A DNA stretch of 64,000 bases from an uncultured delta proteobacterium (GTDB taxonomy: Bacteria > Desulfobacterota > Desulfovibrionia > Desulfovibrionales > Desulfovibrionaceae). The DNA lies in contig CAILNX010000014.1 in the NCBI GenBank assembly GCA_903835685.1, forward strand, positions 1 to 64,000, written 5' to 3'. Position 1 is the first letter of the stretch, and every line of letters starts with the position of its first letter. Position numbers and translations under genes: made by a program. Positions 24,766 through 52,172 of this stretch are shown here, piece by piece. Under the pieces are notes generated by a model. That model ran no database searches. It was not told the DNA's origin and saw only the letters and a program-made list of their open reading frames with translations.

Positions 24766-24779
24766 GAAGGGTGTCCTCC

Positions 24780-26218: not shown

Positions 26219-26221
26219 GGC

Positions 26222-28835: not shown

Positions 28836-28994
28836 CAGAGCCTCGGAACAGGCTCTGGTCCAAGGAAGGACCGTCGGCGAGACTCATATATTTTCCCCTG
28901 TCCTCCTGGAAGGGGATGGTGTTTTATGAAACCCTCTTGCGTCAACGCAAAGTGCATCCGCAAGGGTGAAGCAGACAATCACAAAGGAGTGGAT
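28836..28994 (+). promoter_or_regulatory. Structured 5' leader of the first sequon-rich gene
   Basis: Two stable hairpins lie in a row: CAGAGCCT/AGGCTCTG (28836-28857) and GGTCC/GGACC (28857-28872). Nearer the start codon, TTGCGT can pair with ACGCAA directly after it, or TTGCG with the later CGCAAG, so two structures exclude each other. The leader ends with AAAGGAG before the ATG at 28998. I could not match it to a known riboswitch class. Confidence 0.35.
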
Positions 28995-28997
28995 TGT

Positions 28998-31900: not shown

Positions 31901-32054
31901 GACCGTCCCGGACAGCAACATGAGCAAGGGTTCCGACAGCGGCGCGCCTTGGACTGCTGGCCAGTACATCTGGGGCGTCCGCGGCATCAACCCCAACGGT
32001 TACAACGCCGGCAGCGGCTTTGCCCAGTTTGGCTTGGGCAACTTCACCAAGTAA
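28998..32054 (+). CDS. Exported sequon-rich protein with an inactive C10-peptidase-like domain
   Basis: A protein of 1018 residues. A signal peptide (residues 1-27, ending AAQAMA) is followed by a domain of about 270 residues with the streptopain (C10) layout: WGQ...PYN, then AGWLATAVGQIFNYYGWP, then YIFVVDGYD and HINWG. The catalytic Cys position is Trp67 and the catalytic His position is Tyr244, so it should lack peptidase activity. The rest consists of Fn3-like beta-sandwich units (for example YYKLELFKG, AYEIAYGP, GVEFSATP, YFEMYICKK). By hand I count about 39 N-X-S/T sequons, only a few with an acid at -2 (one is PDSNMSKG). It is a probable N-glycosylated substrate of the neighbouring oligosaccharyltransferase and type II system. 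The start is fixed by AAAGGAG. Confidence 0.7.
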   Translation: MNRKMRRTFGLLLSFALVVGMAAQAMAVTLTLPLMNNTRWGQGNASASQPYNLYAPLNGTEHTTAGWLATAVGQIFNYYGWPTLGTGTITAYTSGGITVPAVSLTTTTTTGRPYLMSNASAMAPLMLNASTNSKYTQSIARMLADIGAAFGTTYRNATYHGGQSNARSVGSFINGSLSAAPFTANFYYKNTAQVVYGKDYGPGRSRGSAWMRLIEGEVNAGRPVIVRLGNDSNTFSFTDYPKNYIFVVDGYDKNANPPVAHINWGNGSNTNMGWYKLNYTSQLPAHLRWGGANVTNMSAIIGIAPKYTNVTLLNPVNASTSSSHPDSDIPKTPYLGGPFRFSGGAGASNDYNYYEITLASPGQPISAGALQYWPSSYCNATTHGSNICTALLHPSVSWTTGVYQWRVRGLYYNASGNTATYGGYSTTRKFNATMNTTLAQRKAVRLRTPNGSISANPTAFTWFRVPGASYYKLELFKGTEVLNDAVVGATGHPAIQQWYNASGPGNSNASLSAWGGQDVDCNTDKNICSLPMSAIANGGSLDLTVTSTTAHTGLGNYFWRVTPFGAGVGPSNSTSFFMNGTNAPTKAPTISCPHAPDVRKPGAYSSLAARCNVTSASPIWGWTDTTTNANDAYEIAYGPAANNPSTYFRAFILRNSSKFQDFYTGIAYKTLPNATSKVQTGPCDGNHCNASIGTTSVAGSILTGTGMHRLYMRGWNKDASNNFQSGDWANFTFYVATPGLGKVANKTPNSVALTRGNGQWTLQDRQMFYPQLHFNGARNASWYGVEFSATPTLSTTRTTFIKYFSKREICNASDTGSTPRCYVNATTVSNATAYYGLVPSFSYNIYSFAPGHVSDISSFKSGNTTAGSSAMPGVPASISPVSYSSTPGSYSWNSSLRSGNATYFEMYICKKAILTGGTVATLCPYHDFIPVDNSNYAATNNTVTRTSAFHGTTAAAASVSGNSWVYTVTVPDSNMSKGSDSGAPWTAGQYIWGVRGINPNGYNAGSGFAQFGLGNFTK

Positions 32055-32271: not shown

Positions 32272-32288
32272 GGAGGTTGAGAACCTCC
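32272..32288 (+). promoter_or_regulatory. Hairpin that hides a Shine-Dalgarno-like sequence
   Basis: GGAGGTT-GAG-AACCTCC is a 7-bp perfect hairpin that buries the only strong AGGAGG in this leader. It lies 24 bases before the ATG at 32313. If the TTG at 32277 or another early codon were used, the hairpin would block it. It may control translation, or be chance. Confidence 0.35.
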
Positions 32289-32312
32289 GGGACACATGAT
32301 GGGAAAATCCGA

Positions 32313-34118
32313 ATGAGACACGTTGCGTTGGTATTGTTGATTCTGCTGACATTGGCAGCGTGGATGGGCGTGGGAATCGGCCCCGTCTCACGGCCCCTTT
32401 GTCTCGCGCCATTCGAGCGATCCCTCAAACACGTTCCCACTGGCGCTCAGGACATCTTGGCTCACTTGGCAGAGCTTGCTTCAGCGTTTCTGACCTCCAA
32501 CGCCTATGCCCAGAGCGACGTGATCCTGACCACCCAACCGACCTCGTACAGTTGGACAGCCTCGGAAGGCGCTACCTATTACAAGTTCGAACTCTACAAG
32601 GACCGGGTCCTCGGGCAGTTGGTCACCGGCACCAGCGGGCACACCAATCTGCCCTATTGGTATAACGCCTCACGGACAGGGTCTGTCGTTGCAGACTACG
32701 ATGTGGACTGCTCGACCAATCCAGGGACGTGCACCCTGCCCTGGATGGCCATCACCAACAACGCCACTGTTGATTTGAGCACGGTCAGCAGCGCAGCACA
32801 CACCGGACCCGGGACCTATGAATGGGTGATCACACCCTGGGCGGCAGGACCGGGGACCCCTGTCAGCTCCACCTTTTATTTGAACAACGGGACCAATCCG
32901 CCCCCTCCAAAGCCCACCTTGTTCTGTCCAGGGCAGATCATGCCTACCGATGTGATCTATGGTCGGGCCGGAGCATGCAACATCACCAGTTCCAACCCAA
33001 CTTTCCGATGGAACGACGTCGCCAATGGCGCCAACGATGCATATGAAATCTATTATGGACCAATCACATCCTCAATAGCCAACTATTTTCATGCCTACAT
33101 CTTGCGCAACTCATCGGTCATGTACGCAGGGCCGACTCTTTCCGTACAGCCAGTTGACGCCTATGGGTGTGACGGCACGACCTGCACGGCTGCCACGGGG
33201 ACAACAGCGGTGACCAGCTCCATCCTGCTTTCTCCAGGAACGTATAAATGGTATCTGCGAGGGTTGAACAGAGACACTTCAGGCGCTCTTCAGTTCACCG
33301 GGGTATGGGGGAACAATACCTTGGTCCTCAGTCCCGACAAACTGACACCCCCGGCAAACCTTTTCACGAACACCCTGACCAACGAGGCATTTTATCCAAA
33401 ATTCCAGTGGGTGCGGGGGACAAACGCCAGTTGGCACAATGTGGAGTTGACCGCCAAACCTTTACTTTCCGCAGCTGCGGTTACCAAAAACGCGTGGTTG
33501 CCTTCGGCCAGGATTTGCAATGCCTCCCTGGAGTGCCAGGTGGGTCCGGATCAGGTGGATACAACCTTTGCCTATGGCGTCAACCCTTCGGCCATCACCT
33601 GGAAGGTCACCCCGTTCAACGCTGAAGTCACGCCCACCTATACGACCTTGGCCCAGATCGGCTATTACAATGGCTCCCCCTTGGCGCCGACCGTGCCCAG
33701 GGCCAATTCGCCAACCACACTCGCTAACGGTATCTGGAACTTCTCCTGGAACGCCACCACAGGCTCAGGAAGCGCGTCTTATGTGGAGATGTACATATTC
33801 CGGTATCCCTTCACTTCGCCCTTCACCTGGCTCTATCATGAATACATGCCCATTGATCCCAGCAATTATCCGCCCACCTCTGGTGCAGGAACTCGCAAAG
33901 GGGTTCTCTTCAGTGGACCTGCGGCACGCTGCACCCCGATCACCCCGAACTGGGCATGTTCGGCACTGGTCCCTGATGCGAATATGACCAAGGGAGACGC
34001 CACGGATACGAACTGGGGCCATGGAGTCTATGGGTGGGCCATTCGGGCGGTGAATCCCATCGGGTACAACCCTGGGACTGGCCTGGAGCAGTGGGGGATC
34101 GGCTACTTCTCCAAATAG
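32313..34118 (+). CDS. Exported sequon-rich protein, paralogue of the C-terminal half of the protein at 28998
   Basis: A 601-residue protein starting MRHVALVLLILLTLAAW. A hydrophobic export segment is followed by a spacer and a likely mature start near SNAYAQSDV. The rest matches the Fn3-like units of the upstream protein in the same order: YYKFELYKD, then AYEIYYGP, then NVELTAKP, then YVEMYIFR. Also shared are the Cys pair in DVDCSTNPGTC and the ending (GLEQWGIGYFSK versus GFAQFGLGNFTK). It lacks the C10-like domain. I count about 12 N-X-S/T sequons. One (PDANMTKG) sits at the place of PDSNMSKG in its paralogue and has an acid at -2. A TTG at 32277 is a less likely start. Probably secreted by the same route. 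Confidence 0.65.
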   Translation: MRHVALVLLILLTLAAWMGVGIGPVSRPLCLAPFERSLKHVPTGAQDILAHLAELASAFLTSNAYAQSDVILTTQPTSYSWTASEGATYYKFELYKDRVLGQLVTGTSGHTNLPYWYNASRTGSVVADYDVDCSTNPGTCTLPWMAITNNATVDLSTVSSAAHTGPGTYEWVITPWAAGPGTPVSSTFYLNNGTNPPPPKPTLFCPGQIMPTDVIYGRAGACNITSSNPTFRWNDVANGANDAYEIYYGPITSSIANYFHAYILRNSSVMYAGPTLSVQPVDAYGCDGTTCTAATGTTAVTSSILLSPGTYKWYLRGLNRDTSGALQFTGVWGNNTLVLSPDKLTPPANLFTNTLTNEAFYPKFQWVRGTNASWHNVELTAKPLLSAAAVTKNAWLPSARICNASLECQVGPDQVDTTFAYGVNPSAITWKVTPFNAEVTPTYTTLAQIGYYNGSPLAPTVPRANSPTTLANGIWNFSWNATTGSGSASYVEMYIFRYPFTSPFTWLYHEYMPIDPSNYPPTSGAGTRKGVLFSGPAARCTPITPNWACSALVPDANMTKGDATDTNWGHGVYGWAIRAVNPIGYNPGTGLEQWGIGYFSK

Positions 34119-34140: not shown

Positions 34141-35409
34141 TTATGCCTGCTCTGCATCCGGGCCGTGGAATTCTTGCACCATGCGCATGTCTGCATAAGG
34201 GATGCGTATGGACACTTCGAGTCCGGAAGAGCCACCAAGGGATGTGTTCCTCGCCTCGAAGGAAAATCCCATGCTTTCTCCAAAAAATTTGACAAAGATG
34301 GTCCCCTGACCAAAGGCCTTTCCACCCCTCTTTTTCGAAGGGATAGGCCGCTTGAAGAGGTTGACCAGGTGCTCCAATGGCACGCCGCCTCCAGCGTCCC
34401 TGACCAGAATTTGAGCACCTATTTCATTGGAATCCAATACTATCTCAATAAGAGGCTGAAAGGCTTTTAAGGCGCCAGGATCTTGCTTTATCAACTCTAT
34501 CTGGCGCAATTCTATAGCCGTCTGACTGTTCCGTACAAGGTTCAAGAGGATTTCCCAGGTCTTGCCGGGATCAACGACAATCTTCTTTGAACAGTTTACC
34601 CAACCTGCATCCCGCAAAACAACTCTGGTCCGTCCGGATTTAAACCGTTGTTCCTGGGAGAGCCGCTCCTGAAGCCAGCGGTGTAACTCATTCATGGCCA
34701 TGGGCGCCGGATTGAAGGCCAATCGTTCTTCAAGCCCACGCAGATGTCGCAGAATATCATCTTGGAAGGGTTTGACCACGCTCTCGTGAAACTCTCTTTC
34801 TTTAACCGGCGAGAGGTCATTGACGATGGAGTGGATCTGGGATTTCCAGGAGCTCTGGAGAAGCAGCAATTCGTCCTTGACCCGATTGGCCTGACGAATA
34901 ACGTCGTCGGTCAGTTTCTGGGTGGCCACCATGAGCTCAAGCTGCTGGCGCATCCTGCGTTCTGCATTGATGCCTTCGTCCCTTTTTCGTCGCTTGATGT
35001 CAGCAGGGGATTCCTTGGTCATCATGATGACCATGAACACAAGAATAACGAGGTAAAGTACCAGAAAAGATTTTCCGGTAAAAAGTTGAGTGGATATAAC
35101 GCTGGACACGGCAAAAAGACGGGCGAAGACAAAGGCGAAAAATAGATTGAAAAAAGCGACATACAGCATGGTTTCGCGCCCGCCCAAGGACCAAGAAAAA
35201 TAAAGGCTGGACACGATAAGCAGATTGCAGAAAATGAAATACCGATTGATGTTGTCGACCATCTGGTCAAAAAGGATGAAGGCCGCCACATAGGCCACGG
35301 CCAACAGGGGGAGTTTCCAATTCTTGATGAAAGTACGCACCGGCGCCAGACCGTGTAGCTCGACTTGCCCGGGCGCTGTGTCATTGTTTTGCTCTAGTTT
35401 CTGGCTCAA
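34141..35409 (-). CDS. Atypical membrane sensor histidine kinase
   Basis: A 422-residue protein. About five or six hydrophobic segments occupy residues 30-150, then a long helical linker (INAERRMRQQLELMVATQ) and a C-terminal GHKL ATPase-like domain: N box ILLNLVRNSQTAI and G box DAGGGVP, with a further Gly-rich lid (GGKAFGQGTIFVKFFG). A canonical H box is not evident; the best candidate His is in QIHSIVNDLSP. It is the last gene of the secretion/glycosylation run, right after a response regulator, and so is probably its partner. The TTG start at 35409 is preceded by AGAGGA. It faces the sequon-rich gene tail to tail with a 22-base gap. Confidence 0.75.
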   Translation of the reverse strand: MSQKLEQNNDTAPGQVELHGLAPVRTFIKNWKLPLLAVAYVAAFILFDQMVDNINRYFIFCNLLIVSSLYFSWSLGGRETMLYVAFFNLFFAFVFARLFAVSSVISTQLFTGKSFLVLYLVILVFMVIMMTKESPADIKRRKRDEGINAERRMRQQLELMVATQKLTDDVIRQANRVKDELLLLQSSWKSQIHSIVNDLSPVKEREFHESVVKPFQDDILRHLRGLEERLAFNPAPMAMNELHRWLQERLSQEQRFKSGRTRVVLRDAGWVNCSKKIVVDPGKTWEILLNLVRNSQTAIELRQIELIKQDPGALKAFQPLIEIVLDSNEIGAQILVRDAGGGVPLEHLVNLFKRPIPSKKRGGKAFGQGTIFVKFFGESMGFSFEARNTSLGGSSGLEVSIRIPYADMRMVQEFHGPDAEQA

Positions 35410-35472
35410 AACAGAGTTCCTCTGAGATCTGGTGCTGTTAATCTCCTGCTGCTCTGTAAGATAAAAAATGTA

Positions 35473-36369
35473 TTAATCAGCGTAGCTTTCGTAGTTGTTC
35501 TTCAGCCATTTATCCATCCGTTTGTTGTCATGCACGGTATCAAGCCGCAATAACTTCTTCTTAGCTGACTTAGGAGAACGGTAATAATAGAGGCGAACCT
35601 TGACCGAAAGGCGAGCAGTGTAGATATGTTCTGTTCCTTTGTGCTTATGTATGTCCAAGCCAGGGTTGCTTGAATCGGACACATCAAAACGGACAAGAGT
35701 CTCGATGACCTTTTTAAACATATTGAACTGTGTATTATAAATATTTTGTAAGTCTTCGACCATGGAGGGAAGAATTTCACTTTGAACCAGAAGGGAGGAC
35801 AGAATCTCCTGGATTTTTCCAAAGGATTTGGCTGGGCCTTTATCTTTGGTAACGGCAAGCGCTTCAGGGCTCTCGTGTTGCAGATCGCACAGTTCATTTT
35901 CCAGGAGGAGCTGGTATTCTTGTGAATCCTTGATTTCAGACTTGAGCTGCTCAACAAGAGTTCCAGCCTTTTGGCTCTTGCGCATGTAGAACTTGATCAT
36001 GCGCACAAGTTGGTCCGGGCTCACGGGCTTGGGAATGTAGTAGGTGAACTCGTCGTCCCCGGCCTCCTGCATGGCGTCAGCATCCATGCCCGTGAGCAGA
36101 ATGACCGGGAGCTTCTGATGGTCTTCCCGTATAAATGGCAGTATATCAACTCCCGACAGGCCAGCATTCTCAAAATGAACATCCAGAAGAATCAGATCTG
36201 GTTCATCTTCGCCAGACTTGAGAAACTCCAAAAAGCTGACCGGATCCTGGAAAGAATGGCGGCGGTTGAGCAATCCAGCGTTACTCAGAATCGCAGCAAC
36301 GGTTTCATGAATCCGCAGTTCATCATCCACCAGTGCAATGACATAGGAGGGCTGCTCAGAGGACTTCAT
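35473..36369 (-). CDS. Response regulator with N-terminal receiver domain
   Basis: A 298-residue protein. The receiver domain has the acid pair in ALVDDE (Asp15, Asp16), phospho-acceptor Asp63 in LILLDVHFE, Thr93 in LLTGMDA and Lys114 in YIPKPV. The C-terminal part (about residues 125-298) is partly coiled coil and partly a basic segment (RSPKSAKKKLLRLD). It matches no DNA-binding output domain I know, so the output may be protein binding or RNA binding. I chose the ATG at 36369, which overlaps the end of the oligosaccharyltransferase gene by 14 bases; the open frame extends a little further upstream. Likely partner: the kinase encoded next. Confidence 0.8.
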   Translation of the reverse strand: MKSSEQPSYVIALVDDELRIHETVAAILSNAGLLNRRHSFQDPVSFLEFLKSGEDEPDLILLDVHFENAGLSGVDILPFIREDHQKLPVILLTGMDADAMQEAGDDEFTYYIPKPVSPDQLVRMIKFYMRKSQKAGTLVEQLKSEIKDSQEYQLLLENELCDLQHESPEALAVTKDKGPAKSFGKIQEILSSLLVQSEILPSMVEDLQNIYNTQFNMFKKVIETLVRFDVSDSSNPGLDIHKHKGTEHIYTARLSVKVRLYYYRSPKSAKKKLLRLDTVHDNKRMDKWLKNNYESYAD

Positions 36370-38512
36370 AGATGCGCACCTCCGGGAATCCTTCCCAGAT
36401 GAGATGGAAATAGGGAGTGAAACGGGGATCATTCACATCGGCCAATAGGAGTTGGACGGCCATGCTATTGTAGGCGTCGTCATCCATGAGAAAACCATTC
36501 TGGACATACTCATTGTAAACGAAATGAGGGCCTGAGGAGGTGGGATAGGGTTGTTTCACCTTGCCCTGCGGGGTGATACGATCATAGGAACTCAAGACGA
36601 TGGGCTGTCTCCCTTTCATGGTAATGACGCCAACCTTTTCGTCCAGGGTATAGGCCTGGGTAATTTCAATGCACTGCGCGTGGCCACCGCTTTTGACCTT
36701 GAAATTCCAGGATCCGTAGAAAGAAATCCAATATAACAGCCGAAAATTTTCCCAGGTCACAACTAGATACTGCTTGTTTGACTTTGGGAAAGAATATTTC
36801 ACCGTAGCCAGGCTATCGATGAAACCCTGCACTTCTGCCGGGGGCTGCTTGCTCATCTCCTCGCTGCCGTCACTTCCGTTCTTTGATGCGGCCGAAATGT
36901 ACCGGATGATCTGGTTCGACTGCAGCGGAGAAGGCGTTATCAGAGCCAAACCAACAGGGAAGACGCGAGAGCCGCTGTGCTTGCCGCCGTCGGCAAAACT
37001 TTTCCGTTTGGCATAATAGTCTGTTGCGTATCCCCAGTCCCACCAGGTCCAGACCTGGCTGTTCGGGGTCGTGAGATCCGCTAGGCTTGTCAAGGCCATG
37101 GCGTGGGATTTGTTCAGGACCGGTGTTGGCGGTGTCCAGAGATAGAGTTGAAGCCAAGGAACAAGCAAGCACAGGCCCAGCACGGTCGGGCACAGGACCT
37201 CGGTCCAATGGTTCCAGAGCCTCTTGGGCAAGTACCAGCGCAACAGCCACAGAAACAGGGCACCAAGACCCAAGGCCACCCCTGGGCCCCCGAACATGGT
37301 CATGCGTGCGCCCATTTTGACACTCAAGAAGCCGAGCACCACCAGGGGGACCAGGAACATCACCACAGGGCGTACCACCAGGAGCAGAGCAAGGCCGACC
37401 ATGCCCACAATGGACAGCCAGGACCAGGGCATCATGCGCTCCAAAATGTCCTGTATTTGGACATTTTGAGCTTCAACCACACTCTGGGTGATCGAAGGGT
37501 AGACCAACGTCCCTGAAGAACCAACTTCCTGGGTGATGGGTTTCATGTAGGCCAAGATTTTGGCGGAAATGTACTGGGCGGGAGAGAGGAGGTTTCCGGT
37601 AGCCGTGAGGGCCAACAGCACAAGGATGGCTGGAATCCAGAAATTCGGCATGATGGGCGCATACCACTGGGGTCGCGTTCGCATAGACCAGGCCATAACC
37701 AAGGCGGCCAGCATGCCGGGCCATCCACCGAGAGCGGCCAGGGTGAACACCACCAGGCCAAGCAGGGATTGTCCCCGGAGTTCTCTTCGCACCACAGCCA
37801 AAATCAAAAAGAAGGCCACCCAGATGGCCACCAAATTGAATTTGCCGATATCATTGTGCCACCAAGCCCCGAAGGCGCTGAAAAGGCCCAGCCAGAAAAG
37901 GGAATACGGACCGGCCATCGGGGATACCACGTCCGTATCCAGGTTCTTGAACCAGGGAATCCTGATACCGGGTTGCAGCCAGAAGGCCAGGCCGAATCCC
38001 ACGGCCAGGGGAAAAAAGAGGGTGGCGATATCGGTGTCATAATAGCCCAGGCGGGTGCGGAAATAGAACCCTGGGAAAAGTCCGCTGAGAAGGGCTGTAA
38101 ACAACCCGACGCCTGTTCCTCCCACGAGTCGCCCCCAAAGAAAACCAACGACCGCCACGAGACTGGAGGCCACAGCCGGGGCCCAAAAAGCCAGGATTCC
38201 ATCCGGAACCTTGGAGATGCGAGAGGCCACATCCAAAAAGATGGACATGGCGCTGTCCGTGGCGCTGCCTATGCGTTCGGCACCGGCAAGCCAATAATAG
38301 GCATCATGGGTTCCCATGATGTATTCAGTATCCGTGGTATAGTTATACCCAGGGACCTCCATGGTAAGGGCTGGATGACCCCATTGCCGGACGTCCAGAC
38401 AGCGGACAGTCAGGGTGAACAGAAATGAAAGCAGGCAAAAGAGAAGGATGATCCGCTTTTTGCTGCCAAATGGTTCCAGTTCAAGAACAGCTTTTACATT
38501 TGATCTGGTCAT
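36356..38512 (-). CDS. pglB: PglB/STT3-family oligosaccharyltransferase inside a type II secretion operon
   Basis: A 718-residue GT-C enzyme that moves a glycan from a polyprenyl-diphosphate carrier to Asn in N-X-S/T. About 12 or 13 membrane helices are followed by a periplasmic domain. Catalytic features: first-loop Asp70 (GTHDAYYW), second-loop Asp159/Asp161 (GYYDTD), a loop-5 Glu in SVVEAQ (Glu347), and WTWWDWGY (residues 488-495). The usual WWDYG has Trp for Tyr. The gene starts 6 bases after the stop of gspF and overlaps the response regulator gene, so it is translated with the secretion genes. It is flanked by three exported proteins with unusually many sequons, which I take as its substrates. 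Confidence 0.88.
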   Translation of the reverse strand: MTRSNVKAVLELEPFGSKKRIILLFCLLSFLFTLTVRCLDVRQWGHPALTMEVPGYNYTTDTEYIMGTHDAYYWLAGAERIGSATDSAMSIFLDVASRISKVPDGILAFWAPAVASSLVAVVGFLWGRLVGGTGVGLFTALLSGLFPGFYFRTRLGYYDTDIATLFFPLAVGFGLAFWLQPGIRIPWFKNLDTDVVSPMAGPYSLFWLGLFSAFGAWWHNDIGKFNLVAIWVAFFLILAVVRRELRGQSLLGLVVFTLAALGGWPGMLAALVMAWSMRTRPQWYAPIMPNFWIPAILVLLALTATGNLLSPAQYISAKILAYMKPITQEVGSSGTLVYPSITQSVVEAQNVQIQDILERMMPWSWLSIVGMVGLALLLVVRPVVMFLVPLVVLGFLSVKMGARMTMFGGPGVALGLGALFLWLLRWYLPKRLWNHWTEVLCPTVLGLCLLVPWLQLYLWTPPTPVLNKSHAMALTSLADLTTPNSQVWTWWDWGYATDYYAKRKSFADGGKHSGSRVFPVGLALITPSPLQSNQIIRYISAASKNGSDGSEEMSKQPPAEVQGFIDSLATVKYSFPKSNKQYLVVTWENFRLLYWISFYGSWNFKVKSGGHAQCIEITQAYTLDEKVGVITMKGRQPIVLSSYDRITPQGKVKQPYPTSSGPHFVYNEYVQNGFLMDDDAYNSMAVQLLLADVNDPRFTPYFHLIWEGFPEVRIYEVL

Positions 38513-38518
38513 TGTGGC

Positions 38519-39727
38519 TCACTTTACCAAGGTACTCAGGCTGAAGATCGGCCCCATTATGGCCAGCACGATGAAGGCGATCATGACGCCCACGACCAGG
38601 ATCAGCAGCGGCTCAGCCAGAGCGACCAGCCTTTTAACCGTGTTATCGACCTCGCGCTCCAATATCTTGCCCAAACGAAGCAAAAATTCCCCGAGTTGGC
38701 CAGCTTTTTGTCCGGTGGCCAATGTCATGATGTAGAGATCTGGGAAAATATTCAGTTTGGCCAGCACCCGATCCAACGGTTGTCCCTGGGCCACTTCGAT
38801 CCGGGCCTTTTGGATGATGTTACGGAAATATGCCGAGTTGATGGCCCCTGCCGAGGCGTCCATGGCCTGGACCAAAGGGATGCCAGCCTCAAGTTGGAAC
38901 CCAAGAAGTCCGGAAAACCTGGCAAGAAGGTGCTTCTGGGTCAGGGGCAGCCGCCACATGAAGCGATCCACCTTCTCCTGTACCTTCGGTGATCGCCGAT
39001 ACAGGGCTATAGCGCCGAGCAAGAGGAGAAAGGGAACAAGCACCCCGGCCAAGCCCAGGGAAGAGAAAAACTCTCCCAGGGACAGCAGCATCTTGGTATT
39101 CCAGGGCAAATCTTTTTGCATGTTGGTGAAAACCTTGGTGATCTTTGGCAACACCTGGGAAAGCAGGAAGTACACCGCGCCAAACCCAACCACGCAGATG
39201 ACCCCAGGGTAGACCATGGCGTTGAGCAATTTGCCTGACACCTCAGCCCGGTTTTCCTCATAGCGGGCGATCTGCTCCAGGACTGGACCCAATCGGCCCA
39301 CACTTTCCGCCACCTTGACCATGCCCACATAGACGGCCGGAAAGGTTCTGCCATGCAGGATCATGCTCTGGGAAAAGGGCAGTCCAGATTCAACATTGTC
39401 GCGGATATCCATCCAGATCTTGGCGGATTTGCCCGATGACATCCGGCCAAGGAGATCCAGAGACTGCGAAAGCGGCGTTCCGGATTGGAGCAGCATGCCC
39501 AGGTAATAGAAAGACTCACTGATATTGAGACTCGGAGAAGGAATAAATTGACTGAAGGAAAAGTGATGAAGCTTTTTTAATCCCTTGTCGCGGACCGGAG
39601 CGATGCTCACCGGGGTGAGGCCTTTCGAGGCCAATTGAGTCATGGCTTTGGTCTGGCTTTCCGAGTCGATAAAGCCTTTTTTGCTTCTCCCATTTGAATC
39701 TATGGCAACATACTGATAACTAGGCAT
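38519..39727 (-). CDS. gspF: Type II secretion inner-membrane platform protein GspF
   Basis: A 402-residue GspF/PilC-family protein. It has an N-terminal YQYVAIDSNGRSKKGFIDSE segment, two repeated T2SSF domains (roughly residues 60-185 and 270-395) and three membrane helices (around residues 165, 220 and 375). It links the GspE ATPase to the growing pseudopilus. It lies between gspE and the oligosaccharyltransferase gene. Length and features are normal. Confidence 0.9.
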   Translation of the reverse strand: MPSYQYVAIDSNGRSKKGFIDSESQTKAMTQLASKGLTPVSIAPVRDKGLKKLHHFSFSQFIPSPSLNISESFYYLGMLLQSGTPLSQSLDLLGRMSSGKSAKIWMDIRDNVESGLPFSQSMILHGRTFPAVYVGMVKVAESVGRLGPVLEQIARYEENRAEVSGKLLNAMVYPGVICVVGFGAVYFLLSQVLPKITKVFTNMQKDLPWNTKMLLSLGEFFSSLGLAGVLVPFLLLLGAIALYRRSPKVQEKVDRFMWRLPLTQKHLLARFSGLLGFQLEAGIPLVQAMDASAGAINSAYFRNIIQKARIEVAQGQPLDRVLAKLNIFPDLYIMTLATGQKAGQLGEFLLRLGKILEREVDNTVKRLVALAEPLLILVVGVMIAFIVLAIMGPIFSLSTLVK

Positions 39728-39941
39728 AACTTATCCTGTGGACTGCGCGTTGTTTGGCGTTCCCTGTTGAGGTCAGGGATGGCAGGAGAAGGAGGTGTGG
39801 CAAGTATGAAAATATCCCTCCCGGGACACCTGAATTCAACTTGGCTGGCCAGGGAAGCCGGAAATCGATACAAAGGGCAATCCGCAAGGTAGATCCAAGA
39901 GGATACGAAATCCCCCTTGAGGGCCCTGGAATAATCCGGGT
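39728..39941. other. Gap between gspE and gspF
   Basis: A 214-base gap in an otherwise tight operon. No gene, terminator or pseudopilin fragment is recognised. A 63-codon plus-strand frame here looks like chance. Confidence 0.35.
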
Positions 39942-41426
39942 TTAAAGCCGAGTCACGCGGATAACTTCCTCCAGCAGGGTTTTCCCCTCTCGTACCAGGG
40001 AAAGGCCATGCTCAAGCATGGTCCGGAAACCGCCGTCCTTGGCCTTGGCCTTGATTCTGTCCACCGAAGCCTTCTCCATGATCAAAGCCCGGACTTCCTC
40101 GTCCACAGGCAAGAATTCAAAGATCCCACGCCGTCCACGAAATCCGGTCTGGAGGCATTTCTCGCATCCCTTGCCTTTGAGTTGAGTGTGGCCAAAGCTT
40201 GAGACATCCAGGCCGACCTGGGCCAGCGCAGCCTCGCTGATGGCCACCTCCCGGATGCAATGGGGACAGTTCAGGCGCACCAACCGCTGGCCCATGACCA
40301 AGGACAGGGACGAGGCCAGGAGGAAAGGCTCTATACCCATTTCCAGCAGGCGCGAAACAGCAGTGGCCGCATCATTGGTATGCAAGGTAGTCAGCACGAG
40401 ATGCCCGGTAAGCGAAGCCTGCACGGCCGTGCTGGCTGTCTCTTGATCGCGCACCTCGCCCACCAGGATGATGTCCGGATCCTGACGCAAAAAAGCCCGG
40501 ATGGAACTGGCAAATGTAACGCCAGCCGCCCGGTTGACCTGAACCTGGTTGACTCCACCAAGATGGTATTCAACAGGATCTTCGACGGTCATGATATTGG
40601 TGGTTTCATTGACCAGTTCGCTCAACCCTGCATAGAGCGTGGTCGTTTTACCGGAACCAGTGGGGCCGGTCACCAGGACAATGCCGTGGGGTTGGGAAAT
40701 GGCCTGCCGGAAAATGGCCAGATCCTGCCCCTCCATTCCGAGATCAGGGAGGGACAAGATGTTTTTGCTCCGGTCGAGAATGCGCAGGACAGCCTTTTCG
40801 CCGTTCATGGTGGGCATGGTGGATACACGGATATCCACGTTTTTCTGGCCGAGTTTCACCTGGATGCGGCCATCCTGGGGCACGCGGCTTTCGGCCACGT
40901 CCATGTCCCCCATGACCTTGATGCGCGCGATGATGGTAGTCTGAAGAGACTTATCGAGCATTTTCAGGGTATTCAGCTCGCCATCCAAACGAAAGCGGAT
41001 CATGAAGGCGTTGTCCTGGCCCTCGAAATGGATATCGCTCGCCCCTTGGGAAATGGCCTGATGCAGGGTTTTGTTCACAAGACGGACAATGGGCGCATCA
41101 TCGTGAGACCAGCCAAGCAATTCCTGGCCTGAGAAGTCCTCGGCCTCGCCCTGTCTATCCTCATCGGCATGAGTGTCCTCTTCCCAGAGGGCGAGGGCTT
41201 GTTCAAAGAGGGGGTAAAACCGGGTCTCCTCCACCTGTTCCGTGCGAATCTTTTGATGAACGATCCAGGCTAGATAGTCGGCAAAGACCCTGGCCCGATC
41301 CGTGATGGTCCAGACCGTCAACACGCCAGCATCGCTGCCAACCGGTATGAATTCATTGCGTTGAGGGAACTGCAAATACGTAGCGACAACGTCTTTTGGC
41401 AAAGCTTGTAAATTTATTTCAGACAT
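39942..41426 (-). CDS. gspE: Type II secretion ATPase GspE
   Basis: A cytoplasmic hexameric ATPase of about 494 residues that powers the pseudopilus. Walker A is GPTGSGKTTT, the Asp box includes QDPDIILVGEVRD, and the His box is TTLHTNDAATA. The tetracysteine zinc site is intact (NCPHC and GCEKC). The N1 domain at the front is short. I chose the ATG at 41426 over the GTG at 41435 because of the AGGAT before it. As an internal control for the sequon counts, this 494-residue protein has only two N-X-S/T sites. Confidence 0.93.
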   Translation of the reverse strand: MSEINLQALPKDVVATYLQFPQRNEFIPVGSDAGVLTVWTITDRARVFADYLAWIVHQKIRTEQVEETRFYPLFEQALALWEEDTHADEDRQGEAEDFSGQELLGWSHDDAPIVRLVNKTLHQAISQGASDIHFEGQDNAFMIRFRLDGELNTLKMLDKSLQTTIIARIKVMGDMDVAESRVPQDGRIQVKLGQKNVDIRVSTMPTMNGEKAVLRILDRSKNILSLPDLGMEGQDLAIFRQAISQPHGIVLVTGPTGSGKTTTLYAGLSELVNETTNIMTVEDPVEYHLGGVNQVQVNRAAGVTFASSIRAFLRQDPDIILVGEVRDQETASTAVQASLTGHLVLTTLHTNDAATAVSRLLEMGIEPFLLASSLSLVMGQRLVRLNCPHCIREVAISEAALAQVGLDVSSFGHTQLKGKGCEKCLQTGFRGRRGIFEFLPVDEEVRALIMEKASVDRIKAKAKDGGFRTMLEHGLSLVREGKTLLEEVIRVTRL

Positions 41427-41479
41427 ATCCTGCACGCAATGAAAGCAAAGTTATTCAATCGTCGAACCGGGACAGAGGA

Positions 41480-43543
41480 TCAATACGGGCTGCCCTCCAC
41501 CCCCGAGGGCTGCTGGCCTGGGGCTGAACCGCGCTCGACCTTGCCCGAAACGCCGTAGAATTCCTTCTCAATGATGGTGTTGGCGCGATCATGATCGGAT
41601 TTGACCTTGTCCATCTTTTCGCGGCCCAGGGCTTCATTGTTTTCCAGGGTACGAATGATGCGAGCCGAAAGAAAGACCATGAGCGTCTTCTTATTATCCG
41701 AAGTGGTTCGATCCTTGAAAAGCCAGCCGAGCAGGGGGAGTTGAGAAAGTCCAGGGACTGAATCCTGGTTTCGGGTCTGGCTGTTCTCCACCAATCCGCT
41801 GATGACCATGGTGGACCCGTCCAACAATTGGACGGCGGTCTTGGTCACCCGGTTGCTGGTGGTGGGCAGTCCAACAGTGCCGCCGGAAACCTGTTTGTAT
41901 TCCTGTCGGATATCCATGCGGATAAGACCGCTTTGCGTGTTCACGTGCGGGTTCACCACCAACTTGATGCCCACGTCCCGGAAATCGTAAGCGATCTGTG
42001 TGCTGCCGCCCTGGGTGGTCTGGGAACCGGTTTGAAAGGGAATATTGTCGCCCACGAAAATTTCCGCCTCGGAATTATCCAGGGTCATGATCTGTGGCGC
42101 GGAAATCAGGTTGAAGTCGCCAACGGTCTTGGTAAAGTTGATGAGGGCCCCCAGGGTGGGAAAGTATGTCCCCTTGTAATTGACCATGTTGCCGAGAATT
42201 CCCATGGAGAAACCAGGGGGTGAAGAGGCAATGTTTGGACCGCCGGTCCCTTTCATGACCGGATCAGCGTAAGTAAAAATTCTGCTGTCTTGGCTCTTGG
42301 TAAAACCCATGGTCCCAACATAGGTGTTCTGGCTGCCAGCCCCTGACATCCATTCCACTCCAAAAGACTGGGAATTGGAAAGCGTGGTCTCCAGGACCAG
42401 CCCTTCAATATACACTTGGTCCAGGGGACGGTCGAGTTGAGAAACAATTTCGTCTACTTTGGGGATGAATTCGGCATCGGCCATGATCAGGAGGGAATTG
42501 GTTCCCTTGTCAGCGGAAACCATGAATTTGTCGCCGGAGCCGAATGAGCTTGCCCCTGGCAACCCCAGCCCAGTTGCAGCCCCTGAACTCCCGGCAGCAC
42601 CCCCAGCGGAACTGCTCTCTGCCTTTTTTTCCGCCTGACGCCCAATGAGGGCCTGGAGGACCATGGCGGCAGAATCCGCTTTGGCGTTCTGCAGTCGGTA
42701 GACCTTCAATTTCTGGTCTGCGGAGACATCGCTGATCACGTCGACTTGATGCAAAAGCGCCTTTACAGTCTGGAGGGAATCGGCGCTTCCGGCCACCAGA
42801 AGGCTGTTGGTCCAATCAATAGGGGAAATGAGCGGCAGTTCGCCGACCTGACCGCGCTCCATGAGCACTTTAAAAAAATCTGTCAATTTCGCAGCAGCGC
42901 CCGAAGCTCTGGCCTGACGCAAGGCGATGACTTCTGTCTTCCATGTGGGTTTGATGCTCTGCATGGTGCTCAAAATTTGTCCCATCTTGTCAATTCGATC
43001 ACGCCTGTCCCGGATAATGATAGACTGTGCTTGAGGTATCGGCTGCACTTGTCCATATTTTGAGGCGAAAGGCTGCAAGAGCTGGGAGGCCATTTGAGGC
43101 GACACATCATTTTTTAATCGATGAACCGTGGTCACCAACTCATCATCGACGCCCTGTGGAGCTTTAAGCTCTGACTCCATGCCCTGTGCTTCGGCCTGGT
43201 TCAAGACATACAAAACAGACCCTCGAGAGACGGAGTAGAGACTGGCGCTGTTCAGGACCTGCTCGAAGACCGCCATGAGCTCAGGCTCATTCATGGACTG
43301 GTTGGAATAGATTGTAACCGTGGTCGCCGGAATCTTGGCTTCTTGGAAGACAATGTTCCGCCCGGTATAACTGGCTACAAATTTGATGAAATCCTTGAGT
43401 TGGATATTCTCAAGATTCGCAGTCATGGCTGAGGTTGGCTGTGTCGTCTGGGCTCTTGCCGTTTGCGTACCCAGAGCAAGCACTGCAACCGCGATGAGAA
43501 AACCCAGCACAATCATTTTGAAAGAAGCAGAAAATGGTTTCAT
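41480..43543 (-). CDS. gspD: Type II secretion outer-membrane secretin GspD
   Basis: A 687-residue secretin with a signal peptide (FLIAVAVLALGTQTARAQ). The N0 domain (LENIQLKDFIKFVASYTGRNIVF) is followed by N1-N3 repeats, with a Ser/Gly-rich insert near residues 305-325 (SSSAGGAAGSSGAATGLGLP) in N3. The secretin domain has VPGLSQLPLLGWLFKDRT, the family signature. It forms the outer-membrane channel that would export the sequon-rich proteins. gspC is immediately upstream. The C-terminal tail past the signature is about 85 residues. Confidence 0.93.
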   Translation of the reverse strand: MKPFSASFKMIVLGFLIAVAVLALGTQTARAQTTQPTSAMTANLENIQLKDFIKFVASYTGRNIVFQEAKIPATTVTIYSNQSMNEPELMAVFEQVLNSASLYSVSRGSVLYVLNQAEAQGMESELKAPQGVDDELVTTVHRLKNDVSPQMASQLLQPFASKYGQVQPIPQAQSIIIRDRRDRIDKMGQILSTMQSIKPTWKTEVIALRQARASGAAAKLTDFFKVLMERGQVGELPLISPIDWTNSLLVAGSADSLQTVKALLHQVDVISDVSADQKLKVYRLQNAKADSAAMVLQALIGRQAEKKAESSSAGGAAGSSGAATGLGLPGASSFGSGDKFMVSADKGTNSLLIMADAEFIPKVDEIVSQLDRPLDQVYIEGLVLETTLSNSQSFGVEWMSGAGSQNTYVGTMGFTKSQDSRIFTYADPVMKGTGGPNIASSPPGFSMGILGNMVNYKGTYFPTLGALINFTKTVGDFNLISAPQIMTLDNSEAEIFVGDNIPFQTGSQTTQGGSTQIAYDFRDVGIKLVVNPHVNTQSGLIRMDIRQEYKQVSGGTVGLPTTSNRVTKTAVQLLDGSTMVISGLVENSQTRNQDSVPGLSQLPLLGWLFKDRTTSDNKKTLMVFLSARIIRTLENNEALGREKMDKVKSDHDRANTIIEKEFYGVSGKVERGSAPGQQPSGVEGSPY

Positions 43544-43554
43544 TGACCTACCTA

Positions 43555-44337
43555 CTAATTCATCTCGACGATGAGGGACATCAAATCCCCGCCACGTTTA
43601 ATATCCAGGTTCATGGCCTGTGCAGATTGCAAGCCCGAGTAGAGTTGCATCATTTTAGCCGGTCCATCAATAGCATCCCCGTTCACGCGCACCAAAATGT
43701 CGCCATTCTGGAAACCAAGTTTCTTGAGGATTGAATTCTCCTGGATATTATCGATCCGGTATCCGACGGTTTTCCCCGCTTCCTGAGCTGGTTTGAACAA
43801 TGCCTGTTGGAGCAGGTTCCCTGGATCAGCCAGAACTGGGGCGATTTCGGATTTCGAGAGAGAGACCTTGTTCTTGGACCCACTCTTTGGAAGAGTAGCA
43901 GGCACCCCGTCCTTGAAGAGCGTCAGTGTCCGCTCCAGCGCCCCAGATCTGAAAACAGCGGTATTTGACTGGACAGTCTCAAGCGTCCAACCGCTCTCCT
44001 GCTCGCCCACCTTCAGGGTCTTGCTTTTTCCTTCAATAAACAGAAGGACCATGGGGCGCGTACTTGAAAATATTCCCAAGAGCTTCCAGCCACTCGGGTC
44101 GGGCCCGACGCCTGGCAGTTGAGGCGCTGGGTTGTCCAGGCTGAGAATATTTCTGCTGGAGATAAGTTCAAGTTTGGACGTATCCGCAGCTGTCGCCTGA
44201 CTTATTGTGTTGATCAGGTCCCGCGAGACATGCGTCGCGCTTCCCCAAAGTCCGGCCAAAAACCAGGCGAGAGAAAGGCCTAGAAAGAAAGGCCAAAGGC
44301 CCTTCGCGGCTATCGTGATTTTTGCGATTGAGTTCAT
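43555..44337 (-). CDS. gspC: Type II secretion protein GspC
   Basis: A 260-residue inner-membrane protein. One N-terminal helix (GLWPFFLGLSLAWFLAGLW) is followed by the periplasmic HR domain (LLGIFSSTRPMVLLFIEGKS) and a C-terminal PDZ-like domain (IQENSILKKLGFQNGDILVR). GspC binds the secretin and helps choose substrates. I chose the ATG at 44337; a TTG at 44352 opens the frame earlier. It is the first gene of the run. The region upstream is full of insertion-sequence remains, so its original promoter or upstream genes may have been lost. Confidence 0.88.
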   Translation of the reverse strand: MNSIAKITIAAKGLWPFFLGLSLAWFLAGLWGSATHVSRDLINTISQATAADTSKLELISSRNILSLDNPAPQLPGVGPDPSGWKLLGIFSSTRPMVLLFIEGKSKTLKVGEQESGWTLETVQSNTAVFRSGALERTLTLFKDGVPATLPKSGSKNKVSLSKSEIAPVLADPGNLLQQALFKPAQEAGKTVGYRIDNIQENSILKKLGFQNGDILVRVNGDAIDGPAKMMQLYSGLQSAQAMNLDIKRGGDLMSLIVEMN

Positions 44338-44487
44338 GGGGGTGTCGGCCAAATAAAAAAGATTTTAACCATTTTTATCCGGCCGTACAAGGAGAAAAGA
44401 GACGCACGGCCAAATCGCGGCAATCAAAAGCCTAAGGCATCTTTTGTGTACTCGTTGGATTGGCTTGTACCCGCTAATAATTCTGAC

Positions 44488-44844
44488 CTACCAGGTTTCT
44501 TCGGACCACTCATAATTGAGGACGGCCCCGAGGTTGTGATTCTCTCCGGAGGCCATTCGGAAGGCGTCCGATGTCATGTTCGCCAGGCTTGAGTGCGGCC
44601 GTACCGAGTTGTAGTGGCTGCGCCAGCCTCCAATGACTGCCTTTGCTTCCGCCCGGCATCGAAACCATTCCATCGACAGACACTCGTCTTGAAATTTGCC
44701 GTTGAAGCTATCAGCGGTTCCATCCTGCCATGGCTTGCCAGGATCGATCAATGCCATTCCCAGTGAATCCTTCACGGCCCAGGACGACAGCGCCTTCGAC
44801 ACGAACTCAAGGGGCCTGTCTTCAGTTTTTGTACCAGGATCTAT
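44488..44844 (-). pseudogene. IS3-family transposase OrfB, C-terminal fragment
   Basis: About 118 residues of the integrase-core end of an IS3-type transposase: EFVSKALSSWAVK, IDPGKPWQDGTADSFNGKFQ with the last DDE acid region, and WRSHYNSVRPHSSLANMT. The frame continues upstream but the similarity stops near 44844, so the first two thirds are missing. It lies just upstream of gspC on the same strand. Confidence 0.82.
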
Positions 44845-44927
44845 GTTAGAGCGCATCTCAAAAACGAGCCCACCTGATTCATAGAAAATCTCTAGACATC
44901 TGGCTTTGTTTCGGCGAATGGGCTTCC

Positions 44928-45902: not shown

Positions 45903-47957
45903 CTACTTCTTGATGCGGCTACGGATGATGCCGAGCGCCGGAGCGATCAGCAGGAGCAGCCATTCCAGACCGAAGCCAGCGGTCGGGTTGAACACACAAC
46001 CCGTGCTGCTGCTGGAGCCGGTGCCGGCGACAATCAGATTTTCGCCGAACACCTGCGGGTCAGTGACGAACTTGGCGGTGTAGTTGCCGTCATAGCCGCC
46101 AGCAGTCGCCTTGTTGTTATCCTTCACGATGAAGTTCACGTAGTAGACGCTCTGGGGGTTCAAGGTCTGGGAGGACAGGAGCACGTTCAGACCAGCGGCA
46201 TCAGTGGAAACCCACCAACGGCCATCGGACTGGCCAAAGCCATCATTGGCGTAGCTGAACTGACGGGTGGCGTTGGTAGCTTCAGCCGAGTAATCCTTGC
46301 CCACGCGACGAATCAACTTGTACAGGCCCAGGTTGGCCACGGGGCCGCCCCATCCAGTGAAGGAGTAGTTGAAGGCCGTGTAGTTGGCGGCGTGCTGGGT
46401 GCCAGCGCCGGTGTCGGAGCAGGTGAAGGTGGCGTTGAAGCGGCGCGCGTCGCCAAACGGCCGGAAGTTAGTGTCCGTAAGCGTGGTCGCATAACGCTTC
46501 TTTTCAGCCGCCCATGTGAAGGACTGCAGCGAAGGAGTATTGATCGTGATGTTCTTGCTGCCGCCCATGGCGCTTACACCGGCCATGCTCACGCCGTTGA
46601 TGGCGCCCAGGGTCGGGGTGGCGGGCACGAAGATTACAATGCTACCCTTGGAGCTGGCAGAGGATTCCTGGGAGTAGCCCACGCCGAACTTCTTGTTCTT
46701 TTCCCACAAAGTCAAATAGCTCGTTGTGTAACCAGTGCTGTTGTAGATGGTGATGTTGTCCATGCCGCCGGTGCGGGAATAAAGCGGAACACCGAACAGC
46801 TTGGTGGCCCGGCTGTACGTGACCTTAGCGGAACCACCAGGACGAATGGTCGTGTATCCCAACTGGGTTGCGGCCGTCTTGTTGTAAACGGTCAGGTTGC
46901 CGTAAGCAAAGTTGCTGCTGGCGTCAGTGGAGATCGTGCCGAGGGTAGCAATGGTTTGGTTGAGTTTGGTAAAGCCAACACCAACCACGTTGTAGGTCTT
47001 GCTCACCCAATCAGAAGCGCTGCCTTCGATGGCATCCTTCAGACCAATGGTCAGCTTGGTGTTATTGCTGCTTTCGCCGAAGAAGGAGGAGTTGCTCAAA
47101 GCCAAGGTAGCGTTTTCAATCAGAGAACTCGTGCCCTTTCTCACACCAAATGCGTAGGTGCTCAGCTGGGTCGTATAGTTCCCGATGACCGGGGTGACGG
47201 AGTTGTTCAGGGCATAAACGTACGCGTTACCGTTGGAACGGTTGAAGACGATCTTGCCAGCGCTCAGAGTGCCAGGTCCCATGGTGAAAAAAGCCCAGGT
47301 AGAGCTGTTGGCCAAACCATTGGCGCCACCAAAGTTGTACCGGTTGGCGGCAAGAGGCGTACCGGAACTGGCCAGGGTGTTCTGGGGCTGCATGGTCAGG
47401 AAGGTAAAACCGTCAATGGCATTGGAGGCATTGGACAGGCGCGAACCGTTGATGGAACGGCTGGCCAGACCGAACGCGGCCGTATAGCCGCTGGTGGGAA
47501 CCATGTAAAGTCTCATGGTGCCGTTCCCGGAGCGGCCGGGAAGAGAAGTGGTGTTCATGTTCAAGTACAACAGGCTGCGAGGATACCCGGAAGGACCGTT
47601 GGCCTGGTCAATGTAGACCTGGCTGGTACCGCCGGTGCTGGTGTAGTTGTCTGCGGCCCCGCCAGGAAGGTTCTTGCTAATCATGATAGTGGCGTTGGCA
47701 CTCATGTTGCCCAGGCTTTGCCTGTAGCCGGTCATGTAAGTCTTGAAATTAGAGTTTTTGTCTCCCACCGTCGAGGAGTTAATGATGCCGATATAACCCT
47801 GCCCTGCCGTGCGCGAGGCGTTGCTGGTCATACCGAAAACAGTCCAGGTGTTGTTCATGCTGACAGGCCAGTTGGTGATGCTGCCGGCCATCGCCTGCCC
47901 GACCCCGAAGGCCAGAAGCAAGGCGAAGACGGTCAGGACTGTAAACCGTTTCATCAT
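45903..47957 (-). CDS. Exported sequon-rich protein with a Cys-containing C-terminal sorting tail
   Basis: A protein of about 684 residues. A signal peptide (MMKRFTVLTVFALLLAFGVG, cut after QAMA) is followed by a beta-rich Ser/Thr/Asn-rich body. The end reads SSSSTGCVFNPTAGFGLEW, then a hydrophobic helix (LLLLIAPALGII), then RSRIKK. That Gly-Cys, helix, basic-end plan resembles the Synergist-, MYXO- and JDVT-CTERM sorting tails; related tails are tied to type II secretion. I count about 28 N-X-S/T sequons, nearly all without an acid at -2 (one exception is YDGNYTA). The two ATG codons at 47957 and 47954 follow CGGAG. No close relative of the body is recognised. Likely a glycosylated surface protein handled by the adjacent machinery. 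Confidence 0.7.
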   Translation of the reverse strand: MMKRFTVLTVFALLLAFGVGQAMAGSITNWPVSMNNTWTVFGMTSNASRTAGQGYIGIINSSTVGDKNSNFKTYMTGYRQSLGNMSANATIMISKNLPGGAADNYTSTGGTSQVYIDQANGPSGYPRSLLYLNMNTTSLPGRSGNGTMRLYMVPTSGYTAAFGLASRSINGSRLSNASNAIDGFTFLTMQPQNTLASSGTPLAANRYNFGGANGLANSSTWAFFTMGPGTLSAGKIVFNRSNGNAYVYALNNSVTPVIGNYTTQLSTYAFGVRKGTSSLIENATLALSNSSFFGESSNNTKLTIGLKDAIEGSASDWVSKTYNVVGVGFTKLNQTIATLGTISTDASSNFAYGNLTVYNKTAATQLGYTTIRPGGSAKVTYSRATKLFGVPLYSRTGGMDNITIYNSTGYTTSYLTLWEKNKKFGVGYSQESSASSKGSIVIFVPATPTLGAINGVSMAGVSAMGGSKNITINTPSLQSFTWAAEKKRYATTLTDTNFRPFGDARRFNATFTCSDTGAGTQHAANYTAFNYSFTGWGGPVANLGLYKLIRRVGKDYSAEATNATRQFSYANDGFGQSDGRWWVSTDAAGLNVLLSSQTLNPQSVYYVNFIVKDNNKATAGGYDGNYTAKFVTDPQVFGENLIVAGTGSSSSTGCVFNPTAGFGLEWLLLLIAPALGIIRSRIKK

Positions 47958-48324
47958 GGAATTAGCTCCGTTTTTTTTGAAAGTTCCTATTGGCGTTGAT
48001 CTCAAACGACATCCCCAGCCGCGTTAGAAGTGACATCATCCTTTCCCACGACAACCAAGGCGCAGCAAGGCTTTGCCCCGATCATCGCCTTGACTTCAAA
48101 TCATGTCTCGAAATAAATGTCAAGTCTGGGGGAGCGCTTGATGTAAAATTTCTCACGAGATAATCCGAGGAGATGAAGACATCCATTGTGGCCAGAGACA
48201 GCGGCGAAGCCCGCAGGTAGTGCATGCACGCCAAACCCAAAAAGCACCGACCGCCTCGGGCATCGTGCGGCGACGCTACGAATTGTGAACAAACCCAGAC
48301 CCATGAAGTGTGCGGGTTACACAA
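47958..48324. other. Leader region of the third sequon-rich gene
   Basis: About 370 bases without a gene. On the minus strand a TTGACA (48123-48118) could be a -35 box, but no good -10 is spaced correctly. A 7-bp hairpin (CAAGGCG/CGCCTTG, around 48057-48092) encloses a GGGGCAAAGCC segment. I could not assign it to a riboswitch class. Confidence 0.35.
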
Positions 48325-52169: not shown

Positions 52170-52172
52170 GGT

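Follow-up and report, generated by a model that had tools for sequence, protein, structure and literature searches.

In bacteria, N-glycosylation is usually regarded as a general modification of periplasmic proteins. Enzymes of the single-subunit STT3 type are known from Desulfovibrio, where acceptor sites without an acidic residue at position -2 are described (PMC4894442): DdPglB favoured AQNAT, QQNAT, and SQNAT, DgPglB took nearly all sites, and in D. gigas the protein HmcA is glycosylated at TANGT. Protein glycosylation and the output of a type II secretion system (T2SS) have been connected in Vibrio cholerae, where O-glycosylation by the broad-spectrum enzyme PglL affects T2SS secretion and acts on chaperones such as DegP (PMC6901666, in excerpt). 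In Myxococcus xanthus, MYXO-CTERM proteins, whose tail consists of an invariant cysteine, a hydrophobic helix, and a basic end, are cut by the CPBP-family protease MrtX and reach the surface via the T2SS, as described in the available portion of PMC11980579. The same portion presents JDVT-CTERM and MrtJ as a two-gene pair of beta- and gammaproteobacteria, and the word stem "glycosyl" is absent from the main text of that paper. Here we analyzed a locus of an uncultured delta proteobacterium of the family Desulfovibrionaceae (assembly GCA_903835685.1, contig CAILNX010000014.1, positions 1 to 64,000, hereafter the window), in which an STT3/PglB-type oligosaccharyltransferase gene stands in a cluster with T2SS (gsp) genes and a two-component pair.

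The locus shares with MYXO-CTERM/MrtX the design of the tail, the protease family, and the T2SS. It differs from what the portion of PMC11980579 describes in that its protease is of the MrtJ type and mostly linked to gsp genes, its tail is a different one, and an oligosaccharyltransferase and a kinase-regulator pair belong to the set. In the excerpts of PMC4894442, by contrast, engineered acceptor sites are tested in E. coli and the enzymes are not linked to secretion genes, whereas PglL glycosylation in V. cholerae is O-linked, and neither a shared operon nor a saturated cargo is described in the excerpt of PMC6901666. We consider it likely that the cluster represents half of a system dedicated to exporting N-glycoproteins and displaying them on the cell surface. 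With somewhat more reserve, we also favour the fuller reading that a T2SS is combined with its own oligosaccharyltransferase, an MrtJ-type protease, a kinase-regulator pair, and a sequon-saturated glycoprotein with a new sorting tail. Such a coupling had been termed a "glyco-secreton" in an earlier reading made from the letters of the window (the sequence-only reading); it now has comparative support, although the window itself holds only half of the T2SS; MrtJ and the C-terminal tail had no place in that reading. What is read from sequence is the set of parts, the fact that they are linked and inherited together, the excess of sequons, and the conservation of the tail, while the steps of the mechanism are inferred. 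All parts are of known kinds, and what appears to be new is that they are combined with a saturated acceptor and a tail of a new subtype. Among the matches listed from the open-licence literature, none described an oligosaccharyltransferase tied to a T2SS operon.

Organization of the gene cluster

Seven genes follow each other on the minus strand between positions 44352 and 34141: gspC, gspD, gspE, gspF, the STT3 gene, a response regulator gene, and a histidine kinase gene (Table 1). Their common direction and order are as the sequence-only reading had given them, and so are the 6 bases between gspF and the STT3 gene and the overlap of the latter with the regulator gene, which amounts to 14 bases with the regulator start at 36369 and to 77 bases with the first ATG at 36432. 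The remaining gaps measure 11 (gspC-gspD), 44 (gspD-gspE), 214 (gspE-gspF), and 63 bases (regulator-kinase). The GspC, D, E, and F encoded in the window are recognizable as T2SS components, GspD above its NCBIfam cut-off; GspE and GspF score far above the Pfam cut-offs and below the NCBIfam equivalog cut-offs. The kinase, sub-threshold for HATPase in the window, has an orthologue in the genus designated g8 that scores 27.7. An Rfam scan of the window gave zero matches at the gathering threshold.

Table 1 Coordinates of the features of the window that are discussed in the text.
Feature	Position	Strand	Evidence
gspC, inner-membrane clamp, PDZ domain	43555..44352	-	PDZ; NCBIfam GspC models match below cut-offs
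gspD, outer-membrane secretin	41480..43543	-	TIGR02517 409 bits, cut-off 351
gspE, secretion ATPase	39942..41435	-	PF00437 458 bits
gspF, inner-membrane platform protein	38519..39727	-	PF00482 159 bits
STT3/PglB-type oligosaccharyltransferase	36356..38512	-	PF21436 76.9 bits, PF02516 37.7, both above cut-off
Response regulator, receiver and 170-residue C-terminal domain	35473..36369	-	G023 orthologue supports start 36369
Membrane histidine kinase, partner of the regulator	34141..35409	-	Sub-threshold HATPase 22.8, cut-off 26.4
Predicted cargo, secreted sequon-rich protein (28 N-x-S/T in 700 aa, 13 reversed)	45903..48005	-	Homologues behind STT3
C-terminal sorting tail (Ser-rich linker, GCVFNP, hydrophobic helix, basic end)	45906..46019	-	Alignment A2, profile search
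Secreted C10-peptidase-like protein (39 sequons in 1042 aa, no tail)	28926..32054	+	C10 domain 87 bits
Paralogue of the C-terminal part of the C10-like protein (12 sequons in 613 aa)	32277..34118	+	Possible further cargo

The other half of the T2SS, gspG-N, is located on contig C35 of the same genome (G000, which also includes contigs C28 and C30). The order on C35 is lipoprotein-gspG-H-I-J-K-L-M-N, followed by an epimerase gene, gmhA (both named by eye), and a second STT3 gene. A CPBP intramembrane protease of ~150 residues, MrtJ, is encoded on the opposite strand, beside the second STT3 and gspG-N. GspG was identified as the major pseudopilin of a T2SS with 165 bits (cut-off 88.85). GspK reached 89 bits, below the cut-off of 130, the matches of GspL, M, and N are weak, and GspH, I, and J were assigned by position and N-terminal motif only. 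Export of folded proteins across the outer membrane is predicted for this T2SS.

In genome G023, one cluster holds the lipoprotein gene, gspG, H, J, K, L, M, N, C, D, E, F, the STT3 gene, and the regulator gene (gspI was read from the list of open reading frames, ORFs), and MrtJ lies ~5 kb beyond the regulator. In the window, insertion sequence remnants (44488-45485; an rve_3 integrase and a DUF4096 IS4/5 transposase) stand between gspC and the gene of the predicted cargo. Because they are found just upstream of gspC, where the G023 order continues into gspN, the two gsp loci of G000 were likely split by a rearrangement. The conserved lipoprotein-like gene right before gspG (L051 12308-13693, L230 10217-11593, L172 4420-5799) gave weak beta-propeller matches and may encode an unnamed T2SS component.

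Co-inheritance and linkage of the parts

We surveyed 247 genomes of the same family and found the window-type GspD in 22 of them, with E values of 1.8e-132 or better (next match 1.9e-75); the copy of G020 is interrupted by a stop codon. An STT3 (E 1e-40 or better) was present in all 22 genomes of this GspD clade compared to 104 of the 225 others. The two lie within 10 kb of each other in 18 of the 22, which belong to four genera (G000, G023, 15 genomes of genus g8, and G088); the gap between STT3 and GspD is 1.6-3.0 kb in 17 of these and 6.3 kb in G088. Moreover, STT3 immediately follows gspE or gspF in 17 genomes, and all 15 linked loci of genus g8 show the one-strand order MrtJ-gspD-gspE-STT3-cargo. 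In G128, likewise of genus g8, this GspD was not found, yet MrtJ is encoded beside STT3, and in G026 the STT3 gene is head to head with gspF. The sequence-only reading had named conservation of the order gspF-stt3-receiver across several genera, with sequon-rich neighbours, as something that would support function. The linkage itself extends over four genera, with a sequon-rich protein next to STT3 in 15 of 15 g8 loci, while the literal order was seen in G000 and G023 only. Beyond the clade, the gsp set of genus g29 is divergent, and its STT3 stands between gspD and a gspC that matches weakly (G028, G176, and G106 were read, G121 and G133 taken by coordinates), and the order STT3-DegT-gspC-like occurs in several further Desulfovibrionaceae loci, e.g. 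L097, L102, and L109.

MrtJ was detected in 20 of the 22 clade-GspD genomes, as opposed to 9 of the 225 others, and within 20 kb of GspD in 19 (in G088, it was assigned by the homology match in the genome survey alone). Counted by genus, the co-occurrence is 5/7 versus 5/37 (p = 0.004). The NCBIfam equivalog cut-off for MrtJ of 75 was exceeded in three of four genomes tested, namely G000 (78.7) and two g8 genomes (80.0 and 80.8), with G023 below it (70.3).

The C-terminal domain of the regulator (35473-35985) was found in 18 of the 247 genomes, G000, G023, and 16 of genus g8, and the kinase in the same 18, all of which are among the 22 with this GspD. The matches of kinase and regulator are adjacent in all 16 g8 genomes, and in the five g8 loci read (L230-L234) the order kinase-regulator-gspC-gspF runs divergently from lipoprotein-gspG-N. 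In G023, the kinase is on a different contig from the gsp cluster, and G026, G088, G015, and G020 have this GspD without the pair. Since the pair co-occurs with this GspD (18 of 22) and adjoins gspC-gspF in g8, it is, on the comparative evidence, a regular part of this secretion system with a variable position, as the sequence-only reading had supposed when it placed the two-component pair with the system. The C-terminal 170 residues of the regulator gave no match to a Pfam DNA-binding domain. A structure prediction of the regulator (A4, two sequences) had a pLDDT of 45.8 and was set aside.

A conserved C-terminal tail on the predicted cargo

The protein directly behind STT3 in all 15 linked g8 loci is a homologue of the predicted cargo of the window. 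Matches to this cargo, either in full or to its last ~120 residues with the tail, were obtained in 21 of the 247 genomes, namely the 18 that have the kinase together with G088, G016, and G201. Eight aligned g8 homologues share the tail consensus S4-6 GCVFNP[AT]A[GS]FGLEWLLL..AP.....RSR.K, and the tails of the 15 g8 homologues agree with it except for one FGMEW. A profile of the tail found it in 11 of 13 genomes searched, with several tail proteins per genome in most (a subset of the matches was read). It was missing from G015 and G020, which are also the two members of the GspD clade that lack MrtJ. Among 150 genomes drawn from the order, 10 had the tail, two of them outside the family with weak matches (E 2e-8 and 3e-6).

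The JDVT-CTERM model, with a cut-off of 27, scored 14 bits on a g8 tail (L035) and gave no match to the window tail. Compared with JDVT-CTERM/MrtJ, the protease is thus shared at the equivalog level in most genomes tested, whereas the tail differs, several tail proteins occur per genome, and the set is linked to the T2SS and STT3. The tail would represent a new subtype of C-terminal sorting signal that is missed by the NCBIfam models tested. Four closely spaced tail proteins with the motif GCAF[ND]PSAG were observed in G016 (L222, contig C40), a genome that has MrtJ and another type of GspD.

Sequon excess in the predicted cargo

We counted N-x-S/T sequons in three window proteins, the C10-like protein, its paralogue, and the predicted cargo, and obtained 39, 12, and 28 compared to 17.5, 7.0, and 13.1 after shuffling, with 13, 6, and 13 reversed motifs. 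In the 15 g8 homologues, 325 N-x-S/T stood against 134 reversed and 148 N-x-x-S/T motifs. With composition kept in the shuffling, the excess is about two-fold in two window proteins and 2.06 in the g8 set. Sequon density per 100 aa is 3.74, 1.96, and 4.00 in the window proteins, as against a maximum of 1.59 and a median of 0.19 in 152 ORFs of the same genome, which were picked by length and are in some cases spurious (L172 of G023 was left out of this control). Other tail proteins are also enriched, mildly to clearly, in some genomes: in G000, four have 34 sequons versus 17, with one of the four (on C30) at expectation, and in G023 and G026, four have 77 versus 33. The G000 set includes L205 (147 aa, frame broken upstream), and the set of other g8 tail proteins includes the G152 protein L215; these comparison sets contain neither L209 (64 aa, at the end of a contig) nor the four tail proteins of G016.

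The +1 position of the sequons is occupied by Ala in 34-35% and by Gly in 11-25%, compared to a background of ~10% each. At +2, Thr outnumbers Ser by 254 to 71 in g8 and by 45 to 34 in the window proteins, and Asp or Glu at -2 is found in 13 of 325 and 3 of 79 sequons, respectively. These apparent site preferences, with Ala or Gly at +1 and few acidic residues at -2, fit those given for Desulfovibrio PglB enzymes in the excerpts of PMC4894442. Within the predicted cargo, 26 of the 28 sequons are located in the first 550 residues. An alignment of 17 homologues has 86 sequon columns, and since 41 of these are private to a single protein, the number of sequons is maintained while their position drifts.

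Weighing of alternative explanations

The alternative that survives best, and that we nevertheless regard as unlikely, is that STT3 and the gsp genes lie in the same surface-polysaccharide island, where STT3 would serve N-glycosylation in the periplasm at large, like the enzyme of Campylobacter. In its favour, sugar-nucleotide genes stand on either side of the cluster in the window, and STT3 occurs without this T2SS in the 104 other family genomes mentioned above. Furthermore, STT3 is 314 kb from gspD in G152 and on a different contig from GspD in G015, G020, and G026. These arrangements weigh against a dedicated export system, and so do the following observations. The exact order gspF-stt3-regulator was observed in only two genomes while others shuffle the same parts, genus g8 contributes most of the counts, the contig that carries MrtJ is not that of the window, and G000 carries three STT3 genes. 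In addition, the 214-base gap between gspE and gspF is the weakest point of the one-operon claim and may break the operon; given this gap and promoter-like and terminator-like sites that are no more frequent in the window than at chance level, a single transcript from gspC to the kinase gene is no more than plausible. Against the island, however, the same parts are found together despite rearrangement, as illustrated by STT3 behind gspE or gspF in 17 genomes, by MrtJ beside STT3 in G128 where the clade GspD was not found, and by the kinase-regulator pair beside gspC-gspF in g8. Besides, the g8 sequon excess is seen in the protein next to STT3 and is absent from ten other tail proteins.

This last comparison also limits the dedicated-export reading. 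There is no excess in the ten other tail proteins, which come from five g8 genomes (76 N-x-S/T versus 95 reversed), nor in the four tail proteins of G016 (6, 7, 0, and 6 versus 4.8, 5.4, 3.1, and 5.2 expected); the G152 tail protein behind STT3 has 13 sequons versus 12.5 expected. Because these tail proteins of g8, G016, and G152 lack the excess, the T2SS/MrtJ route would also serve cargo without the sequon signature, and only certain proteins may be the targets of glycosylation. To these points are added the weak enrichment of the C10-like protein's paralogue (12 versus 7.0, p 0.03; N-x-x-S/T 10) and the structure model of the cargo, which was unusable (A3, three sequences, mean pLDDT 31.3).

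It is improbable, more so than the island, that the sequon excess is a by-product of surface repeats rich in Asn, Ser, and Thr. The proteins are indeed rich in Asn and in Ser/Thr, the excess is weak in one of the three window proteins, and a false sequon signal was met in another locus: a 1494-residue sequon-dense ORF near STT3 in G067 was rejected as a candidate, as it consists of RTX-type repeats (by eye) in which GND[ST] mimics sequons. However, the two-fold excess in two window proteins and the g8 set persists after composition-preserving shuffling, reversed and spaced motifs are near expectation, and the biases at +1 and +2 fit an oligosaccharyltransferase. An origin from DNA repeats was rejected in view of the mostly distinct DNA words of the sequons (33 of 39, 12 of 12, and 26 of 28 in the window proteins). 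Finally, although glycosylated pilins exist elsewhere and STT3 is closely linked to the gsp genes, it is highly improbable that STT3 glycosylates the apparatus itself (pseudopilins, secretin) instead of cargo, since GspC, D, E, and F have 0, 2, 2, and 1 sequons versus 2.0, 4.9, 1.7, and 1.3 expected (5 versus 9.9 in total), GspG-N with the lipoprotein on C35 have 6 versus 10.2, and the exported protein has about twice its sequon expectation.

Proposed mechanism of the export system

In the dedicated-export reading, cargo such as the predicted one would enter the periplasm via a signal peptide and be held at the inner membrane by its C-terminal helix. The linked STT3 would then transfer a lipid-linked glycan to many N-A/G-T/S sites in the N-terminal part of the cargo. 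MrtJ would cut the tail near the invariant Cys, presumably after lipidation of this Cys as modelled on what is proposed for MYXO-CTERM and MrtX, and thereby release or lipid-anchor the cargo, and the T2SS, with gspC-F in the window and gspG-N on C35, would move the folded glycoprotein across the outer membrane. The kinase-regulator pair would set the expression or activity of the system.

If this holds true, Desulfovibrionaceae would possess a dense N-glycoprotein coat, and N-glycosylation would be a step within a dedicated line of export and anchoring, with an acceptor protein adapted to it. The question raised is why a secretion system carries its own oligosaccharyltransferase. The system also points to a bacterial protein that may be heavily N-glycosylated in nature, and it names candidate cargo for this T2SS. 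A counterpart may be seen in archaea, where STT3 is associated with archaeosortase A; the NCBIfam results for the window include a family of that name.

STT3 enzymes and surrounding glycan genes

The STT3 of the cluster retains the motifs WWDWG and YYDTD and matches PglB (5ogl) with 100 bits. Its YYDTD and the EL5 Glu align with 5ogl at the acidic metal ligands of C. lari PglB. As the NCBIfam PglB equivalog scored 116 bits and its cut-off of 1300 was not reached, the enzyme is best described from its sequence as a member of the STT3 family rather than a Campylobacter-type PglB. Glycan transfer to Asn is predicted for it through the indirect signature of the sequons. The second STT3, on C35 (L051 1781-3916), is 48% identical to it and has YFATD instead of YYDTD. 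Because the first Asp of this motif is lost, this copy may be inactive, by analogy with PglB mutants. The two paralogues and the G023 STT3 form one clade in the STT3 tree (100/100). We infer that the STT3 of the cluster, rather than a paralogue, acts on the predicted cargo.

A third, divergent STT3-type gene (9399-11504, plus strand; PF21436 35.7 bits) is located in the window at a distance from the gsp genes. Sugar-nucleotide and glycan genes flank the cluster at 22177-28129 and 51078-62375 and encode, among others, an asparagine synthase, two DegT aminotransferases, a PglF-type dehydratase, and a cytidylyltransferase. They are a possible source of the transferred glycan.

Tail-less sequon-rich proteins of the window

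The C10-peptidase-like protein and its paralogue had no match in the other 246 genomes searched. Aligned with interpain A, the C10-like protein has Trp in place of the catalytic Cys and Tyr in place of the His, so that it is probably not a protease. Both tail-less proteins could be released cargo. An additional C10-like paralogue of 418 residues (L225 1510-2766, C28) has 6 sequons versus ~1.6 expected.

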